Shown piece after piece: positions 9,635-18,776 of a stretch of 36,143 nucleotides of DNA. This DNA is from Gallionellales bacterium RIFCSPLOWO2_02_FULL_57_47. GTDB taxonomy: Bacteria; Pseudomonadota; Gammaproteobacteria; Burkholderiales; Gallionellaceae. Where the stretch lies: assembly GCA_001801175.1 (NCBI GenBank), contig MGWZ01000023.1, positions 1 through 36,143 of the forward strand, given 5' to 3'. Position numbers and translations under genes: made by a program. How positions within the stretch are numbered: position 1 is the stretch's first letter; the number at the start of each line of letters is the position of its first letter. Below the pieces are notes generated by a model. It saw only the letters and a list, made by a program, of their open reading frames with translations, made no database searches and was not told where the DNA came from.

Positions 9635-10930
9635 CTAGGTGCCGTAACGTGTTTCCACGCGTATGCCGATTTCTTTGAGCATTGGAATGGGCAAAGTGCC
9701 GCCGGCACAGACGATGACGACATCGCTGGGAATTTCCATTGGATGCCCGTTATGATCCATCAGGACTCGCTCTTTTTCAATTTGGAGCACTTTTGATTTC
9801 ATCAGGACTTTAATCCGGCCATTCTGTTCCGCTGCCTTGATGCGTTCGCGGTTTTTCGGCTTTGCGCCCGCGAAGACTTCACTGCGGTGAGCGAGCGTCA
9901 CTGTCGTACCCGGTTCTTCGGCCAGAGAAAGCGCCGCCTCGAGCGCGGAATCGCCGCCACCGACAACCAGTGCATGTTTGCCCTGATACTGGCTCGGCTC
10001 TACCAGGCGATAGCATACTTTCGCCATCTCCTCTCCGGGGACGTCCAGCTTGCGGGGCGTGCCGCGCCGTCCAATGGCGAGCAGCACGCTCCCGGCTGTG
10101 TATTGCCCTTTCGGTGTCGACACGACGAACTTCCCGTCTTCATGGCGCAGCACATCCATGCGCTCGCTGAAGTTGATCTTGATACCGGTTTTTTTCGCAA
10201 TGTCTTCCCACAGTTCGATCAGCGCTTCCTTGCTGATCTCGGTCAATTTCACTAATCCAATCTGCGGCAGGGTCATCGGTGCGGTCATCACGATCTTCTG
10301 GCGCGGATAATGAAGCGCGGTCCCGCCGATCGCATCCTCCTGTTCAAGGGTAAGGTAGCGCAGGCCGGCTTCCTGTGCCCCCAGCGTGGCGGAGATTCCG
10401 GCCGGTCCCGCGCCGATGATGATGACGTCGTAGTCTGTCCCGGCGACACGCCGCTTCTTGATGTGCGCGATGGCCTGCTTGCCCTGTTCCACTGCCTTGC
10501 GGATCAGCCCCATGCCGCCAAGTTCGCCGGCAATGAACAAGCCCTCGATGTTGGTTTCAAAGCTGGGATAGACGAAGGGGATGTCGACACCGCGTCTCTC
10601 GGTGCCGAAAACAAGGCGGATCGCACCGGACGGGCATGCGGCAGCGCAGGCGCCATGGCCGATGCAGACCGACGGATTGATGAAGAAGCCCTTGTGGTCG
10701 ATGATCCCGATGGCATTCTCGGGACACGCTTTCGCGCACGACACCGCGCCGATGCAGATGGCAGGATCGATCAGCGGGTGCAGCGATGGCGGTTCGGTCA
10801 GACCGGCGGCTTTTACCTCCTGCCATTCAGCCTGGGCAGCTTTTGTGCGCTTGCGGCCCTTTCTCCGGTAGACAATTATCAGGATGATCAGAGGAACCAG
10901 ATAGATTGCGTAAACAAGTAGTTCGTGCAT
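9635..10930 (-). CDS. Ferredoxin-domain FAD/NAD(P) oxidoreductase, membrane-anchored
   Basis: I choose the ATG at 10930 (431 residues) over the upstream TTG of the ORF track. The protein starts with a membrane segment (LLVYAIYLVPLIILIIVY) and a basic stretch. A double ferredoxin domain follows (about residues 52-100), then a thioredoxin-reductase-like fold with an FAD motif (VIIIGAGPAGISA) and an NAD(P) motif (ALVVGGGDSALEAAL). The thioredoxin-reductase CxxC pair is absent, so electron transfer between NAD(P)H, FAD and Fe-S is more likely than disulfide reduction. Both ferredoxin motifs lack their second cysteine: CIGAVSCAKACP has Ala and CIGHGACAAACP has His. The gene is divergent from the Crp/Fnr regulator and near the cytochrome operon, so a role in electron delivery is plausible but inferred. 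Confidence 0.82.
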   Translation of the reverse strand: MHELLVYAIYLVPLIILIIVYRRKGRKRTKAAQAEWQEVKAAGLTEPPSLHPLIDPAICIGAVSCAKACPENAIGIIDHKGFFINPSVCIGHGACAAACPSGAIRLVFGTERRGVDIPFVYPSFETNIEGLFIAGELGGMGLIRKAVEQGKQAIAHIKKRRVAGTDYDVIIIGAGPAGISATLGAQEAGLRYLTLEQEDAIGGTALHYPRQKIVMTAPMTLPQIGLVKLTEISKEALIELWEDIAKKTGIKINFSERMDVLRHEDGKFVVSTPKGQYTAGSVLLAIGRRGTPRKLDVPGEEMAKVCYRLVEPSQYQGKHALVVGGGDSALEAALSLAEEPGTTVTLAHRSEVFAGAKPKNRERIKAAEQNGRIKVLMKSKVLQIEKERVLMDHNGHPMEIPSDVVIVCAGGTLPIPMLKEIGIRVETRYGT

Positions 10931-11310
10931 TTTGTTTTGTGTTGTTTTTGCAACAAGAATTGAATTTTTTAATTTTAGTGTAATTAGCAAGCTAGCGCTA
11001 TTGCTTCGCCATCGACACGCCCACTTCGTTTCCCAACTCCGGGATCAGTTCGTGCTGTATCATAATCGATGTATTTTGTATTGACTGAAAGAGTGGGTCA
11101 GGTCTTTATGGCATTTTCAAATTTGCCTCCGCTGACTTTTAGTTCCCCGGTGAATCATTATGAGAACCAATCGCAGCGTGGACTGTCGAAATGAGCCATT
11201 TCCAGAGTGGTGCCGAATGGAATCCCGGCGTATCCAATTCACAAGTCGCCCGCGCCACCCCCGGCAGGCCGGACAGAACACCATCCAGAATTCATGAAAA
11301 AAATAGTCCT
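10931..11310. other. Divergent intergenic region
   Basis: About 380 bp separate the minus-strand oxidoreductase from the plus-strand Crp/Fnr gene and must hold both promoters. I could not assign convincing -35/-10 boxes. A piece reading gagtgggtcaggtctttatg (about 11090-11110) resembles leader sequences often seen before transposase genes, but no transposase is present, so it may be a remnant. The ORF track's TTG and ATG extensions of the two genes into this region are not supported by family lengths. Confidence 0.4.
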
Positions 11311-11955
11311 ATGGCGATGCAGCAGAACCTTACCCCCTTCCTGAATCTCGACGAAAGCGAGCTGAAGGAATTGATCCCGCAGGGCATGGTGCGAACGTAC
11401 CCCAAGGGCAGCATCATCATTCATGCCGGTGATCTTTCCGACTCGCTTTACGTCATCCTGTCTGGCCGGGTAAAAGTCTTCATCAGCGACGAGAACGGCA
11501 AGGAGTTCATGTTAAGCACGATCAGCCCCGGCGACTATTTTGGTGAGGTGGCGCTGGATGGCGGGCCGCGCACCGCGTCCATCATGACCCAGGATGCATG
11601 CCGCTTCTTCGTCATCCCCAAGGCCGAGGTCAAGGCTCTGATCGAGCACCATCCCGATTTTGCGCGCGATCTGATCGGGCGCCTGATTAGCAAGATACGC
11701 AACCTTGCGGACAGCGTGCACAACCTGGCGCTCCTGAGCGTCTATTGCCGCCTGCTGAAGTTCATCGAGGAACAGGCCACCCGGCGCGAAGACGGGCGCC
11801 TCGCCACCGAACGCGTGACCCAGCAGGAAATCGCCGCGCGCATCGGCGCATCGCGCGAAATGGTCAGCCGCATCATCACCGATCTCACCAACTGCGGCTA
11901 CATCTCCGTCGAAAACAGGCGGATCATTGTGCACAAGGCACTTCCGGAGCACTAA
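11311..11955 (+). CDS. Crp/Fnr-family transcriptional regulator
   Basis: This is a 214-residue DNA-binding regulator. The family start is most likely the ATG at 11311 (or 11317), not the 11191 extension. The N-terminal cyclic-nucleotide-binding-like beta-roll carries GDLSDSLYVILSGRVKVF and PGDYFGEVALDGGPRTAS, followed by the dimer helix (LISKIRNLADSVHNLALLSV) and a C-terminal winged helix (VTQQEIAARIGASREMVSRI). The N-terminal cysteine cluster of oxygen-sensing FNR is missing, so a Crp-like ligand or another signal is more likely. The GE and RTAS elements of the nucleotide pocket are present, but whether it binds cAMP is unknown. It sits directly upstream of the riboswitch and cytochrome operon and is a natural candidate to control it. 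Confidence 0.88.
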   Translation: MAMQQNLTPFLNLDESELKELIPQGMVRTYPKGSIIIHAGDLSDSLYVILSGRVKVFISDENGKEFMLSTISPGDYFGEVALDGGPRTASIMTQDACRFFVIPKAEVKALIEHHPDFARDLIGRLISKIRNLADSVHNLALLSVYCRLLKFIEEQATRREDGRLATERVTQQEIAARIGASREMVSRIITDLTNCGYISVENRRIIVHKALPEH

Positions 11956-11995: not shown

Positions 11996-12010
11996 TGTGA
12001 ATATGTCACA
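11996..12010. promoter_or_regulatory. Crp-like palindrome TGTGA-N5-TCACA
   Basis: The sequence tgtgaatatgtcaca is a perfect inverted repeat of the Crp half-site, but with a 5-base instead of the usual 6-base spacer. It lies 41 bp past the Crp/Fnr gene and just before the riboswitch-like element. A second palindrome (cacag-tacgg-ctgtg, 12007-12020) overlaps it. It may be a regulator site for the cytochrome operon, or simply the 5' stem of the RNA element. Confidence 0.35.
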
Positions 12011-12318: not shown

Positions 12319-13203
12319 ATGAACACCCATCAAAAATCTGATACCAGCTTGACTGACAATGCCTTGCGCGTGGCGTGGCATGTCTCTGTCTGGGTGTTTG
12401 TCATCGTTATGGTCGCGCTTGCCTGGTTTGTGGCAACAGAAAGGCCATATAAGGCAGATGACGTTATTGGCTACAACATGGGTCTGGTGGGCGGGAGCAT
12501 GATGCTTTTGCTGCTGATTTACTCCTTGCGCAAACGTTTGGGATTCATGAATAAGGCAGGGCCGGTACGCCATTACTTCGCATTCCATATGTTTCTTGGC
12601 GTTATCGGTCCCATTCTGGTGATATTTCATACCACCTTCAAAATCGGCGCGCTGAATAGCCGTATTGCGCTCTACTCGATGTTGCTGGTAGCGGGCAGCG
12701 GATTGGTCGGGCGTTTTGTTTACCGGCATATTCATCAGGGCCTTTATGGCCGCCAGACAAGTCTGGCCGAAGCGGAGCAACTGTTGAACGAGAGCGCCGA
12801 GAGTGTGCAAAGCATATTGAGCATTGCTCCGGACATAGAAAAAAAGCTGGAAGACTTCCGTTCATATTCCGTTGTTAAATTGAAAGGTATCTGGCCGCGC
12901 AGCTGGCGCTTCATCACCTTGCGTATGCGCGGACACAGCCTTGCGCATGCAGTCCGGAAAGAGGCCAGGCATACCCTTGAACAGGCAGGCCGCGAAAAAA
13001 ACTGGTCGCACGATGAGTTGGCCGCCCAGCAAAAATTGGCAGGCGAACGGATTGATGGCTATGTGGAAGCGGTATGCAGCGCTGCCACCTATGCGACCTG
13101 GGTTCGCCTTTTTGCGCTTTGGCACGTGGTTCATGTGCCATTCCTTTATCTATTAATCATTACGGGCATCGTTCATGTTGTTGCGGTCAATTTCATGTAT
13201 TAG
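12319..13203 (+). CDS. Candidate diheme b-type cytochrome, inner membrane
   Basis: This 294-residue polytopic protein has about five membrane helices (roughly residues 18-38, 51-70, 86-106, 115-135 and 264-290) and a long basic soluble loop between the last two. Two helices carry histidine pairs exactly 14 residues apart: H90/H104 (FHMFLGVIGPILVIFH) and H272/H286 ([15 protein letters not shown]). This H-x13-H spacing is the heme-ligand pattern of cytochrome b and ferric-reductase-type diheme proteins. I infer two stacked b hemes and a quinone-linked role passing electrons to or from the periplasmic cytochrome encoded next. Other His residues (H85, H137, H139, H269) lie at helix ends. Its gene overlaps the 27-heme cytochrome gene by 29 bp, implying coupled translation. 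I do not recognise a named family. Confidence 0.75.
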   Translation: MNTHQKSDTSLTDNALRVAWHVSVWVFVIVMVALAWFVATERPYKADDVIGYNMGLVGGSMMLLLLIYSLRKRLGFMNKAGPVRHYFAFHMFLGVIGPILVIFHTTFKIGALNSRIALYSMLLVAGSGLVGRFVYRHIHQGLYGRQTSLAEAEQLLNESAESVQSILSIAPDIEKKLEDFRSYSVVKLKGIWPRSWRFITLRMRGHSLAHAVRKEARHTLEQAGREKNWSHDELAAQQKLAGERIDGYVEAVCSAATYATWVRLFALWHVVHVPFLYLLIITGIVHVVAVNFMY

Positions 13204-15268
13204 TTTCTTCCGCTGTCTGCTATTGGCAGCCCTGATGCTCTCGTCGCATTGGGCTGCGGCTGATTCCGCCGAAACCGCACTGATGCCGGGCAAGGTGATC
13301 GAGGGCCATGCCAAGTACGAGGACGAATGCAAGAACTGCCACAAGCGCTTCGACAAGGCCGCGCAGACCGGCCTATGCCTCGACTGCCACAAGGAAACCG
13401 CGGCGGATGTTCGCTCGCACAAGGGCTATCACGGGCGCCTTAAGGACAATGAGTGCCGCACCTGCCACACCGACCACAAGGGTCGCAACGCCAAGATAGT
13501 CATCTTCGACAAAACGAGCTTCAAACATGACGAGACCGGCTTCATTCTCGAAGACAAGCACAAGACTGCCAAGTGCGAGGGTTGCCACAAACCCAAGCTG
13601 AAATATCGCGAAACACCCTCCAAATGCGACTCATGCCATCAGAAGGATGACGTTCATAAAGGCAAGCTTGGCCTTGAATGCGGCAACTGCCATGACGCAA
13701 AGGACTGGAAAAAATCAACGTTCGACCACGAGAAATCCAAATTCAAACTGGCCGGCGGTAAACACGCGGATGTTAAATGCGAGAAATGTCACTTTGACAA
13801 GGCGCTCAAGCTTGACAAGACTTTCAAGGAGGCTTCAAAAGAGTGCAATTCCTGCCACCGCAAGGATGACCAGGCCAAGGGACACAAGGGGCGCTATGGG
13901 GAAAAATGCGAAACCTGCCATAACGACCGTAGCTGGAAGGAAATACATTTCGATCACGACAAGGACACCAAATATGTGCTTCTCGACAAGCACGAGAAGG
14001 TGAAATGCGATTCCTGCCATTTGCCGGCAAAGCCGTTGTACAAACAGAATCTTTCGACGACGTGCGTGGCTTGCCATCGCAAGGATGACAAGGAAAAAGG
14101 CCACCAGGGCAAGCTCGGCGACAAGTGCGAAAGCTGCCACACAGAAAAAGACTGGAAAACCACCAAGTTCGATCACGACAAGGATACGAAATACCCGCTC
14201 AAGGGCAAGCATCGCGATGCCAAGTGCGACACTTGCCACAAGAGCGGCGTGGCTGGAATTGCCAGCAAGAAGCCGCTGGAAAAACTGGAGACGGCGTGCG
14301 TCAGCTGCCACCGCAAGGATGACCAGGAGAAAGGCCACAAGGGAACTTATGGCGCCAAGTGCGAATCCTGCCATACCGAGAAAGACTGGAAAACCCTGAC
14401 CTTCGACCATACGCGGGATACGAAATACCCGCTGAAGGAAAAGCACGTTCCGGTCAAATGCAAGTCCTGCCACCTTCCCGACAAACAGTTGTACGGGCAG
14501 AAACTGGAGACCACCTGTGTCAGTTGTCACCGCAAGGTTGACCAGGAGAAAGCCCACAAGGGAACGTATGGCGCCAAGTGCGAATCCTGCCATACCGAGA
14601 AAGACTGGAAAACCCTGACCTTCGACCATACGCGGGATACGAAATACCCGCTGAAGGGCAAGCACATTCCGGTCAAATGCAAATCCTGCCACCTCCCCGA
14701 CAAGCAGTTGTATGGGCAGAAGCTGGAGACCACCTGCATTTCCTGCCACCGCAAGGATGACAAGCACAAGGACCAGCTCGGCACAAAATGCGAAACCTGC
14801 CACACCGAGGAATCCTGGACCAAAACCAGATTCGACCACCAGCGCATGTCGAAATACCCCCTGCTGGGCAGGCATGCGCTGGTGAGCTGCAAGAAGTGCC
14901 ACACTGCCCTGACCTACAAGGATGCAAGCAAGGAGTGCTTCGGCTGCCACGAGAAGGACGACAAGCACAAGCGGCGTCTGGGCACGGAATGCCAGGACTG
15001 CCACTCTGCACGCTCATGGCAGGCGTGGGATTTCGACCACAACAAGACCGATTTCAAACTGGACGGTCCGCACAAGAAGGCAGCAAACAAGTGCTACGAC
15101 TGCCACCAGAAGCCGATGGATAAGAAGGTGCTGGCATCCACTGCGTGCGGCAGCTGCCATGACCGCGAAGACGTGCATAACGGCAGCTATGGCGATCGCT
15201 GCGACCGTTGCCACGACGGCAATGACTGGAAGCAGGTCAAGATGGGTACGATAGTTCCGCAAAAGTAG
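13175..15268 (+). CDS. 27-heme c-type cytochrome
   Basis: This 697-residue secreted multiheme cytochrome has 27 CxxCH heme-binding motifs by manual count. An N-terminal signal peptide ([15 protein letters not shown], cleavage near residue 29) directs it to the periplasm; no lipobox is seen. The body repeats a three-heme unit of about 73 residues: CxxCHRKDD..KGHKG..G.KCxxCH..DWK...FDH..DTKY.L..KH..KCxxCH. The FDH and KH histidines are obvious candidates for distal heme ligands. The protein is very Lys-rich. Two copies of the unit are almost identical at DNA level with a 219-bp period, a sign of recent internal duplication. It lies between the candidate b cytochrome and a second multiheme protein. 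A periplasm-spanning wire or outer-membrane-conduit role is inferred. Confidence 0.92.
14342..14780 (+). repeat. 219-bp tandem repeat inside the 27-heme gene
   Basis: The DNA from 14342 (ggaacttatggcgccaagtg) recurs nearly unchanged at 14561 (ggaacgtatggcgccaagtg). The period is 219 bp, or 73 codons and three hemes. Long stretches are identical, including synonymous positions, indicating a recent in-frame duplication or ongoing homogenisation. More diverged units flank it. Confidence 0.85.
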
Positions 15269-15331
15269 AACTATTGAAGATTCAACCAGTCCTATGCGTT
15301 TGAAAAAATAGCATCTTTTGAGAATAATTGT

Positions 15332-15348
15332 GGAGGAGGTGGATCGTG
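15332..15348 (+). promoter_or_regulatory. Ribosome site fixing a GTG start
   Basis: A strong ggaggagg lies six bases before a GTG at 15346. The ORF track begins at a TTG at 15328, which sits upstream of this site and would place the site inside the coding sequence. The Shine-Dalgarno position therefore selects GTG 15346 as the start of the second cytochrome. Confidence 0.75.
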
Positions 15349-16530
15349 AGACAACTTGAACAAAAAATATGGCGCGGTTTGATTGCGATGACATTAGCGA
15401 TTGCTTCTTTGCAGGCCGTGGCCGCTGAACAATTGGGCGGGCGCGATTTCAACCATATGACCACCGGTTTCCCGCTTTCCGGCGTACATGCCACGGCGGC
15501 ATGCGAGACCTGCCACGTAGGCGGTGTCCTCAAGGGCACGCCGAGGAACTGCGATGGCTGCCATGCGCTCGGCCAGCGCGTCGTGGCAACGCCGAAATCC
15601 ACCAGCCACATCGTGACCGATGCTCCATGCGAAAACTGTCACTTCAATACGGCGACTTTTCTGGGGGCGCGCTATAACCACGGCGCGGCCATGCCTGGAC
15701 AATGCCGGACTTGCCACAACGGGCTGCAGGCAACCGGCAAGCCGGGCAGCCACAACACCGGCAGCAAGGCCACGGCATCCTGCGATCAATGCCACAGGTC
15801 TGTTGCATGGGGCCCCGCATCATGGAACCACACCGGCGTCGCTCCGGGCACCTGTACGACTTGCCACAACGGCAGCACGGCAATCGGCAAACCGGCGGGC
15901 CATAACACGGTCGCCAAGGCTACATTTCAGTGTGATGAATGCCATTCCTTTATCGGCTGGCTCCCCGCCAGATACAAACACACCACGGCCGGAGTTTGCT
16001 CGAGTTGCCACGACGGCGCCACGGCGATCGGCAAGCCGGCAAGCCATAGTCCGGCAGCCATCAAGGGTATAAACCCCTGCAGCGACTGCCATAAAGTAAC
16101 AACAAGCTGGCTCCCCGCAACGTATACGCACAGCGCGTCTGGCACATGCGTGATTTGCCATGACGGCATCAAGGCGGTGGGCAAGAGTGTGGGTCATATC
16201 GCTACGACCGACGACTGCAATAGCTGCCATACATCTACGCTGACCTGGGCGGGTGCGCTTGGCGGCAAACCGGCTAACCACATTCCCTATATTGCCGGGG
16301 TGACGTGCAGTGCCTGCCATATCGGAACCACTGTGGTGAAAGGGGCTCCCTTGCATGCTTATGTTTCTTTACCTTGCACTACCTGTCACTTGAAAGGCAA
16401 TGGATTGCTCGGAAACATGGATACAAAATCAATTGGGCATGAAGGCATGAAGGCAGGAGATGATTGTTCCAAGTCAGGATGCCATAAGCCATTGGGAAGC
16501 CGAGGCACCCTGTATACGAACTGGGATTGA
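15346..16530 (+). CDS. 13/14-heme c-type cytochrome
   Basis: This 394-residue secreted multiheme cytochrome has a signal peptide (IWRGLIAMTLAIASLQAVAA) followed by 13 CxxCH motifs and one CSKSGCH near the C-terminus, which would be an unusual Cx4CH heme site. Its middle is made of repeats of about 35-45 residues with the pattern CxxCHNG..A.GKP..H..., then C..CH...W.PA...H. These differ from the Lys-rich units of the preceding cytochrome, so the two are not simple paralogues. It follows the 27-heme gene after 77 bp. Being next to the porin gene, it is a candidate for the outer-face or in-pore electron carrier; which side it occupies is inferred, not shown. Confidence 0.9.
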   Translation: MRQLEQKIWRGLIAMTLAIASLQAVAAEQLGGRDFNHMTTGFPLSGVHATAACETCHVGGVLKGTPRNCDGCHALGQRVVATPKSTSHIVTDAPCENCHFNTATFLGARYNHGAAMPGQCRTCHNGLQATGKPGSHNTGSKATASCDQCHRSVAWGPASWNHTGVAPGTCTTCHNGSTAIGKPAGHNTVAKATFQCDECHSFIGWLPARYKHTTAGVCSSCHDGATAIGKPASHSPAAIKGINPCSDCHKVTTSWLPATYTHSASGTCVICHDGIKAVGKSVGHIATTDDCNSCHTSTLTWAGALGGKPANHIPYIAGVTCSACHIGTTVVKGAPLHAYVSLPCTTCHLKGNGLLGNMDTKSIGHEGMKAGDDCSKSGCHKPLGSRGTLYTNWD

Positions 16531-16545
16531 ACGACTGCAGCCAAA

Positions 16546-16577
16546 GCCACGCGAGTCAACGCTTGCGTGGCCTTTTT
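16546..16577 (+). terminator. Intrinsic terminator between cytochrome and porin genes
   Basis: The sequence gccacgcgag-tcaacg-cttgcgtggc forms a 10-bp stem (one G-T pair) with a 6-base loop and is followed directly by ctttttat. This is a good rho-independent terminator shape 15 bp after the cytochrome stop and 42 bp before the porin start. It may be partial, lowering porin expression relative to the cytochromes. Confidence 0.7.
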
Positions 16578-16619
16578 ATGTTTGCACCCAGGTAAAACAA
16601 TATTATCAAGGAACAGAAA

Positions 16620-18776
16620 ATGTCTATCTATCAGACTTCACGAGTGAGGCGGATTCTATTGGCGCTATCCATGGTTGCGGGCGCATGTTCGGGCGTTGCC
16701 GTTGCACAGCCGCTGGATGACGTGAGCCTCGAGTACCAGAACCAGGGGATCGTCGCCACCATCCGCCTGACCGGGCCGGTGCAATACCTGCGCCATTTCC
16801 CCGAGAGTCACGGCAAGACGCTGGAGATTTATTACGACCGCGTCCAGGGCGCGGCCAGCACCGAAACCTGGGTGGACAATGAGGTGCGCAAGTCGCCCCC
16901 TTCGGGTCTTATCCCCAGCTTCACGGTGACTTCGCGCGACCAGCAGACCAGGCCGAAACTGGTGATCGAGTTTGCCCGCGAGGCGGAATACAGCGTTGCG
17001 CCGGGCAAGGACAATCGCAGCCTGCTGGTCACGATACGCCCGGAAAAGCGGCCGGTGGGCACCGGTCCCCTGCCTTTCCTGCCGGCGATCAAGCCAGAAG
17101 CCGCGGCTCCCCCCGCTGCAGCGTTGTCAGCGGAAGAAGCAAATCTGGCAGAGAACAACAGGCAGGCGCGTGTCCTGATGGTGCAGGGTCGTGACGCGCT
17201 GGCAGCCAAAACCAATGAAGCTGCGGTGGATGCGTTCAACAAGCTGCTGATGCTGCCGCCCAACGATTACACGCAGGATGGCCAGGAATGGGTCGGCGTG
17301 GCACGCGAGCGCGCCGCGCAAACCGACAAGGCAAGGATCGAGTACGAACTGTATCTGCGACTGTATCCTGAAGGCGAAAGCGCGGAACGGGTGGCGCAGC
17401 GCCTGGCCGGACTGGCCGGACAGGTAAAGGTACCGGCGGTCGCTGCAGCAGAAGAGAAAAAACAGGTTGCCCGCTGGATGACTTTCGGCAACATTTCTTC
17501 GCGCTATTACTACGGCACCAGCAGGATCGACTCGCTGTACACGTTCAACAACGTTGCGACGACCTCTTCGGATTCGTTCAACGACCAATCCATGCTGATC
17601 ACCAGCGTGGATGTATCCGAGCGATATGCGAGCGAAGAATACGACGGGCGCCTGGTGTTCCGCGACGTGAACACCAGGAACTTTCTGTCCAATCAACCCA
17701 GCCAGAACCGGGTGAGTTCTGCCTATGGAGAAATTAAGAACCGCACGCAAGACTACATGCTGCGGCTGGGCCGGCAACCCTCTGCCGGAGCCGGCGTGCT
17801 CGGCCGCTTCACCGGTCTCTCGGGCTCATACGGCTTTGCGCAGGACATGCACGTCAAGGGAGTGGCAGGTTCAATGAGTGATTACTCGCAAGGCAGCCAG
17901 CCCGTATTCGCCGGCGCCAGCCTGGATAAAGGCCCGCTATCGATATACGCCATCAGCCAGCGCGTCGATTCCGCCACGGACCGCCGTGCAGTGGGAACGG
18001 AATATCGCTACTTTGAGGGCAACAAGACTGCGTTCGCCCTGCTGGATTACGACACCTATTTCAAGGAGGTTAACGCGGCGCAAGTGATGGGGACGGTCGG
18101 AACAACCGTTGGGACAGTGAACTTCATGGTGGATCACCGCAAGACACCTTCGTTGAGCATACGCAACGCCCTGGCTGGCGCAAGCACGCCGTCCGTCGAT
18201 GCGTTGTTGCAGACGATGTCTGCCAGCAGTCTGCGGGAGCTGGCGCTGCAGCGCACCGCCCTTTCCAACATGGGACAAGTCGGCATCACTGTCCCTCTGG
18301 CCAAAAAATGGCAGGCGGGCGGCGATTTCCGTTTGTCGAACACAACCGGGCTGCCAGCCAGCGGAACGACCGCACTCGAAGGTATCCTCGCGGCTACTCC
18401 GGGCCGCGGTACCGAAAAGACCGTGACCGGGCAGCTCATCGGCAGCGGACTCTACATGAAGGGAGATATCTGGTCGGGCAGTATTTCCATCAACACCAGC
18501 AGCGTGGTAAGCGGCAGTTCCCTCTTTCTTTACAACCATACTCAGTTCGAAAGCGGCTGGGCAATGGATACCTCGCTGCAAATGTATCGCCAGAAAGACC
18601 AATTTGGCAGTTATATGAGGCGCAATTCGCCGATGGTGCGCGGCGCGTACCGCCTCAAGGAGCAGTTCTATTTCGATGCGGACCTGGGCTATGAATTCAC
18701 TAAATTCACAGGTGCGCAGCAAATCAGCAAAACGAATCGCTACTTCTACTCTGCAGGGCTGCGCTGGGATTTTTAG
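16620..18776 (+). CDS. Outer-membrane beta-barrel (porin of the cytochrome conduit) with periplasmic N-domain
   Basis: This 718-residue protein starts at an ATG preceded by aaggaac. Its signal peptide is cleaved near residue 29 (SGVAVA|QP). Residues about 35-140 look like an AMIN/FimV-type beta domain (VSLEYQNQGIVATIRLTGPV ... RSLLVTIRPEK), then comes a Pro/Ala linker, then a helical TPR-like stretch (about 172-268). From about residue 288 to the end there are alternating aromatic beta-strands, and the protein ends in ...YFYSAGLRWDF, the terminal-Phe signature recognised by the BAM machinery. Its position after two multiheme cytochromes suggests it holds a cytochrome in a transmembrane pore, as MtrB does for MtrA. 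It is not visibly MtrB-like, and the N-terminal periplasmic region is unusual for such porins. Confidence 0.82.
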   Translation: MSIYQTSRVRRILLALSMVAGACSGVAVAQPLDDVSLEYQNQGIVATIRLTGPVQYLRHFPESHGKTLEIYYDRVQGAASTETWVDNEVRKSPPSGLIPSFTVTSRDQQTRPKLVIEFAREAEYSVAPGKDNRSLLVTIRPEKRPVGTGPLPFLPAIKPEAAAPPAAALSAEEANLAENNRQARVLMVQGRDALAAKTNEAAVDAFNKLLMLPPNDYTQDGQEWVGVARERAAQTDKARIEYELYLRLYPEGESAERVAQRLAGLAGQVKVPAVAAAEEKKQVARWMTFGNISSRYYYGTSRIDSLYTFNNVATTSSDSFNDQSMLITSVDVSERYASEEYDGRLVFRDVNTRNFLSNQPSQNRVSSAYGEIKNRTQDYMLRLGRQPSAGAGVLGRFTGLSGSYGFAQDMHVKGVAGSMSDYSQGSQPVFAGASLDKGPLSIYAISQRVDSATDRRAVGTEYRYFEGNKTAFALLDYDTYFKEVNAAQVMGTVGTTVGTVNFMVDHRKTPSLSIRNALAGASTPSVDALLQTMSASSLRELALQRTALSNMGQVGITVPLAKKWQAGGDFRLSNTTGLPASGTTALEGILAATPGRGTEKTVTGQLIGSGLYMKGDIWSGSISINTSSVVSGSSLFLYNHTQFESGWAMDTSLQMYRQKDQFGSYMRRNSPMVRGAYRLKEQFYFDADLGYEFTKFTGAQQISKTNRYFYSAGLRWDF

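Follow-up and report, generated by a model that had tools for sequence, protein, structure and literature searches.

Four consecutive open reading frames on the + strand occupy positions 12319-18776 of the window (the whole stretch of 36,143 nucleotides that was analysed, one contig, C23, of a genome of 2.81 Mb). They encode, in order, an inner-membrane protein (IMP), two secreted cytochromes and an outer-membrane β-barrel (Table 1), the components of PCC3, an electron-conduit gene cluster that was defined in 2017 by He et al. (PMC5566968) and is thought to wire the cell membrane to the cell exterior via giant heme proteins. An earlier note on this DNA had described a row of just this kind, with a His-rich membrane protein, cytochromes with 27 and 13 ("13/14") CxxCH motifs and a barrel ending in Phe. 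Its ORF coordinates agree exactly with ours; on recounting, CXXCH occurs 27 times in the first cytochrome and 13 times in the second, which has one CX4CH besides, and the barrel, modelled with AlphaFold2, has 22 strands in a protein that ends in WDF.

Table 1. Features at and directly upstream of the four-gene locus (positions are those of the window)
Feature	Position	Strand	Remarks
CRP/FNR-family regulator, directly upstream of PCC3 genes	11191..11955	+	90% identical in G052
PCC3 inner-membrane protein (IMP), putative di-heme b cytochrome	12319..13203	+	294 aa; five TM helices, HX13H pairs, SGLVG
27-heme c cytochrome, predicted periplasmic PCC3 subunit	13175..15268	+	697 aa; signal peptide, then nine triheme modules
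Triheme-module array of 27-heme cytochrome	about 13286 to 15265	+	
14-site c cytochrome, predicted extracellular PCC3 subunit	15328..16530	+	400 aa; 13 CXXCH + CX4CH
CX4CH site of 14-site cytochrome	16465-16485	+	residue 380
Terminator-like hairpin, gap between second cytochrome and porin	16546..16571	+	11 pairs, then CTTTTT; consensus match only
PCC3 outer-membrane porin	16620..18776	+	718 aa, C-terminal end WDF
Porin N-terminal β-sandwich domain	16707..17045	+	residues 30-142, AlphaFold2
Porin TPR-like helical domain	17130..17420	+	residues 171-267; weak likeness to BamD/CpoB TPRs
Porin 22-strand β-barrel	17472..18773	+	residues 285-718, AlphaFold2

The end of the IMP gene and the start of the 27-heme cytochrome gene share 29 bases, and the later intergenic gaps are 59 and 89 bases long; the four genes therefore look like a single operon, the terminator-like hairpin before the porin gene notwithstanding. 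That hairpin may lower porin expression. The 14-site cytochrome begins with a TTG codon and the position of its start is uncertain.

Relation to PCC3 and its distribution

PCC3 combines a porin, an extracellular MHC, a periplasmic MHC and a 5-helix membrane protein, for which SGXXG and two WX3HX13H motifs are diagnostic (PMC5566968). As applied here, the definition asks for MHCs with a very high heme density (one heme per 22-39 aa) and for an IMP ~300 aa long that crosses the membrane with five helices, the third and fifth carrying WX3HX13H and the fourth SGXXG. The 27-heme cytochrome has 25.8 aa per heme; for the second cytochrome the figure is 28.6 if all 14 sites are counted and 30.8 if the 13 CXXCH alone are. 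The IMP (His-rich, with five predicted membrane helices) has HX13H pairs at H90/H104 and H272/H286 and SGLVG at 127-131, and departs from the definition only in having Tyr86 in place of the first motif's Trp; the He 2017 motifs are present in the window and conserved among relatives. The 2023 Gallionellaceae survey gives 21, 24 and 27 hemes for periplasmic subunits and 10-18, 15/17 and 26-35 for extracellular ones (PMC10734462), and the window's 27/14 pair agrees with the published classes. Identity with locus L080 of another genome, G123, is 56% for the porin, 53% for MHC1, 47% for MHC2 and 34% for the IMP. The PCC3 clusters of G123 have 17/21 and 24/28 hemes; since these counts are identical to the ones stated for Slit_0867-0870 and Slit_1446-1449 in the S. 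lithotrophicus ES-1 report (PMC8788666), we take G123 to be ES-1. Motifs, heme counts and homology to ES-1 thus all match a system that has already been described, and we regard the four genes with high confidence as PCC3 genes of a Gallionella-type genome, acting as a putative inner-membrane-to-surface conduit. The earlier proposal of a distinct new type has to be given up: in components, order, heme counts and IMP motifs the cluster is PCC3 itself, whose families the earlier note had also listed for comparison.

The PCC3 porin is found in 75 of 158 genomes within the family and in 44 of the 369 genomes of a class-wide draw; no copy was found on plasmids. Wherever contigs are long enough, the order IMP-MHC-MHC-porin is kept across many families, including Proteobacteria outside the Gallionellaceae, so that the co-occurrence of the four homologues on which the earlier note had made its reading depend is indeed seen in other genomes. 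At a Nitrospira locus (L153) the PCC3 genes are rearranged, in a divergent arrangement.

This PCC3 cluster is shared by the nearest relative, G052 (JAHFQZ010000005.1). Among porins, the window and G052 branch within a Sideroxydans-type group, and the phylogeny of the 27-heme protein follows that of the porin; in the membrane-protein tree, the same two lie across a branch with 100/100 support, with Gallionella-type proteins. Forcing their IMPs into the Sideroxydans-type clade, a group named after inspection of the tree, is rejected (AU p = 0.0002). Because the trees conflict, the IMP of the window has probably been exchanged and the cluster is probably a mosaic, which suggests that the two sides of the conduit are interchangeable parts; we are unsure of the exact source of the exchanged IMP on account of its long branch.

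The window and G052 also share the upstream CRP/FNR-family regulator gene (90% identical between them), which was seen beside PCC3 in these two only. Between it and the putative operon, at 11996-12010, lies a 15-base palindrome-like sequence, TGTGAATATGTCACA, which is conserved with its flanks in G052 and may be where a regulator binds, its 5-base spacer being unusual. CRP consensus sites, with their 6-base spacer, were found barely above chance and mostly in CXXCH codons, and were discarded. Further upstream, the - strand at 9635-10990 encodes a 2x[4Fe-4S] ferredoxin domain fused to a YpdA/thioredoxin-reductase-like flavoprotein with a hydrophobic N-terminus.

The proteins of the predicted conduit

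The IMP matches no Pfam family, and a fold search (Foldseek) identifies no solved relative (E > 0.3); its PDB profile matches were to fusion GPCRs and designs only, at chance level, and were set aside. It is the histidine pattern that points to heme binding and makes the protein a putative di-heme b cytochrome with two b hemes.

The periplasmic cytochrome has 27 CXXCH motifs, where ~0.4 would be expected from its Cys and His content (hand calculation), arranged as nine triheme modules of 68-82 residues with the pattern KHxxVKCxxCH...CxSCHRKDD...FDH. Periplasmic PCC3 cytochromes generally are arrays of triheme modules of ~68-73 aa, in which heme spacing repeats in threes (median phase 17-18-33), and all 70 complete copies have a heme number divisible by three: 15 (n=1, the relative L116), 18 (1), 21 (28), 24 (31) or 27 (9). 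Since most of these loci are interrelated, the fair measure of this regularity is the number of changes of heme number on the tree of membrane proteins (at least 17) rather than the 70 copies. The passages of the PCC3 papers that give the counts hold no statement of a multiple-of-three rule or of the triheme-module array. Second-type cytochromes do not obey it (38, 19 and 32 of them leave a remainder of 0, 1 and 2, respectively) and range from 9 to 74 heme sites in the same comparison set. The size of the periplasmic subunit is nearly constant and that of the extracellular one widely variable (CV 0.10 versus 0.63), as would be expected of an inner cytochrome that has to fit the periplasm and an outer one without such a constraint.

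In both cytochromes of the window the His residues suffice for bis-His ligation of all hemes (57 His for 27 hemes, with six Met in the whole precursor, in the first; exactly 28 His, two for each of 14 sites, in the second), and phmmer searches of the PDB matched nothing for either. The second, in whose sequence no lipobox is seen, is predicted to be extracellular. Some of its counterparts elsewhere are far larger. At locus L204 (G774:C17, 1022-13234) a single 4071-aa ORF with 133 CXXCH and 10 CX4CH is flanked by a cytochrome of PCC3 type on one side and a PCC3 porin on the other; in 2017, the highest heme number known was 85 (PMC5566968). PCC3 clusters outside the Gallionellaceae at L154 (Novimethylophilus kurashikiensis), L183 and L191 have second-type cytochromes with 67-74 heme sites. 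Two second-type cytochromes per cluster are seen at L085, L087, L096, L098 and L135, one of the two lying downstream of the porin in L135.

The AlphaFold2 model of the porin (mean pLDDT 86.3, pTM 0.57) places a β-sandwich and TPR-like helices before 22 strands within residues 285-717. Profile support for the TPR part is weak (PF13371, BamD-type), and we found no mention of such a domain in two PCC3 genome papers. In fold comparisons the porin resembles generic porins and ushers at a query TM-score of ~0.3 or less; membership of the usher family was rejected at that score. The two N-terminal domains suggest a docking place for the inner wire, and would probably dock the 27-heme rod.

Proposed electron path, direction and partner

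Electron transfer through the outer membrane is a predicted function of PCC3 throughout (PMC12442390). In the scheme that we infer, including its contacts, heme loading, direction and partner, the IMP would bind two b hemes, by its helices 3 and 5, and through them exchange electrons with quinone; the 27-heme cytochrome would carry the electrons across the periplasm as a rod of nine triheme modules. The 22-strand barrel, docking this rod by its periplasmic β-sandwich and TPR domains, would pass the electrons on to the 14-heme cytochrome outside, there to meet an insoluble or bulky redox partner. The earlier note had tied the conduit to the quinone pool; its porin-cytochrome set stands, with a protein on the quinone side that is probably b-type by its His motifs.

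A quite different role for the barrel, as a secretion channel (usher-like or a TPR-barrel exporter) with the cytochromes as cargo, would accord with the FimD usher being the barrel's top Foldseek match and with the TPR domain preceding the barrel, as in polysaccharide exporters. The FimD match, at a query TM-score of ~0.3 and 10% identity, is however at the level of any generic barrel; no chaperone, pilin or synthase genes adjoin the porin, and its partnership with cytochromes is fixed, all of which makes this reading very improbable. Nor could any exporter family be assigned to the barrel by profile or fold searches, so that the earlier note's own reservation about a non-barrel or exporter-type porin falls away. 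An electron conduit being preferred, the 27-heme protein might still, like the Geobacter triheme-module cytochromes in one proposal, serve mainly as a periplasmic store of electrons (a capacitor) rather than as a wire that spans the periplasm; the modular triheme array GSU1996 and GSU2210, which has 27 hemes, count as capacitors there (PMC10138318). We consider this unlikely: the periplasmic cytochrome is constantly encoded beside a quinone-side protein and a porin and varies little in size, which suggests a fitted conductor. Our own tentative proposal, to which we give somewhat less than an even chance, is that the periplasmic cytochrome is a ruler: a single-protein wire of five to nine triheme modules, gained or lost only as entire units, spanning from the quinone-side protein to the TPR dock of the porin and making a continuous wire from inner membrane to surface without a soluble shuttle, with the outer cytochrome free to exceed 100 hemes.

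The direction of flow along such a wire is a separate matter. S. lithotrophicus ES-1 has fewer transcripts of both PCC3 clusters with Fe(II) than with thiosulfate (PMC8788666), and proteomics places PCC3 at low to middling levels on Fe-citrate and magnetite (PMC12016527); for one PCC3 copy of CL21, the membrane protein increased along with iron-oxidising ability (PMC12442390). The latter and the host lineage would speak for a link to iron, and the ES-1 transcript and protein levels against a role with Fe(II). The genome also has its own MtoA, MtoB and tetraheme genes on another contig, C80, so the PCC3 of the window may serve another partner or direction than MtoAB. Outward flow, to an extracellular acceptor (humics, Fe(III), Mn(IV)) when oxygen is short, instead of inward flow for Fe(II) oxidation, would fit the ES-1 transcripts, the presence of PCC3 in many lineages without known iron oxidation and an oxidation role already covered by MtoAB. 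It has against it that PCC3 is common among iron-oxidising Gallionellaceae (PMC10734462), the CL21 increase, and the reversibility in principle of such wires, and on balance it is rather unlikely. PCC3 is widespread and its function a prediction; the triheme rule, together with the contrast between an inner subunit of fixed and an outer one of free size, replaces the loose notion of "many hemes" by a design that can be put to the test.

Comparison with other conduits

With PCC3 as described by He et al. (2017) and in the 2023 survey the window shares its four components, gene order, heme classes, IMP motifs and low number of residues per heme. It differs in the Tyr that replaces Trp in the first WX3HX13H, in an IMP whose lineage is mismatched with that of its porin and in a barrel that, at 22 strands, is small beside published predictions of up to 42 transmembrane regions.

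The likeness to MtoAB, MtrAB and PioAB is one of working principle (a porin and a multiheme cytochrome across the outer membrane), without membership by sequence. Against TIGR03509 (MtrB/PioB) the window porin has no match at E<=0.1, and the cytochromes score 42.8 and 46.8 bits against TIGR03508, for which the cut-off is 192.2 bits; porin and cytochromes are not MtrB- and MtrA-like, just as the earlier note had it. The genome's only TIGR03509 match, its true MtoB, is on C80 (G000:C80, 23846-27769), where MtoA (10 CXXCH), MtoB and a tetraheme gene stand in a row. A further + strand ORF, sensor-like, comes after them.

PCC4 and Uet clusters also join a porin to several multiheme cytochromes, but these are small (3-12 hemes) and come with other accessory proteins in a layout unlike that of the window. 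The Geobacter triheme-module (nanowire) cytochromes, which are periplasmic, resemble the window's 27-heme protein in their tandem triheme modules (GSU1996) and, in GSU2210, in the number of 27 hemes. That protein has too few Met for one His-Met heme per module, is not matched by the nanowire_3heme model at E<=0.1, and is encoded next to a porin and an IMP.
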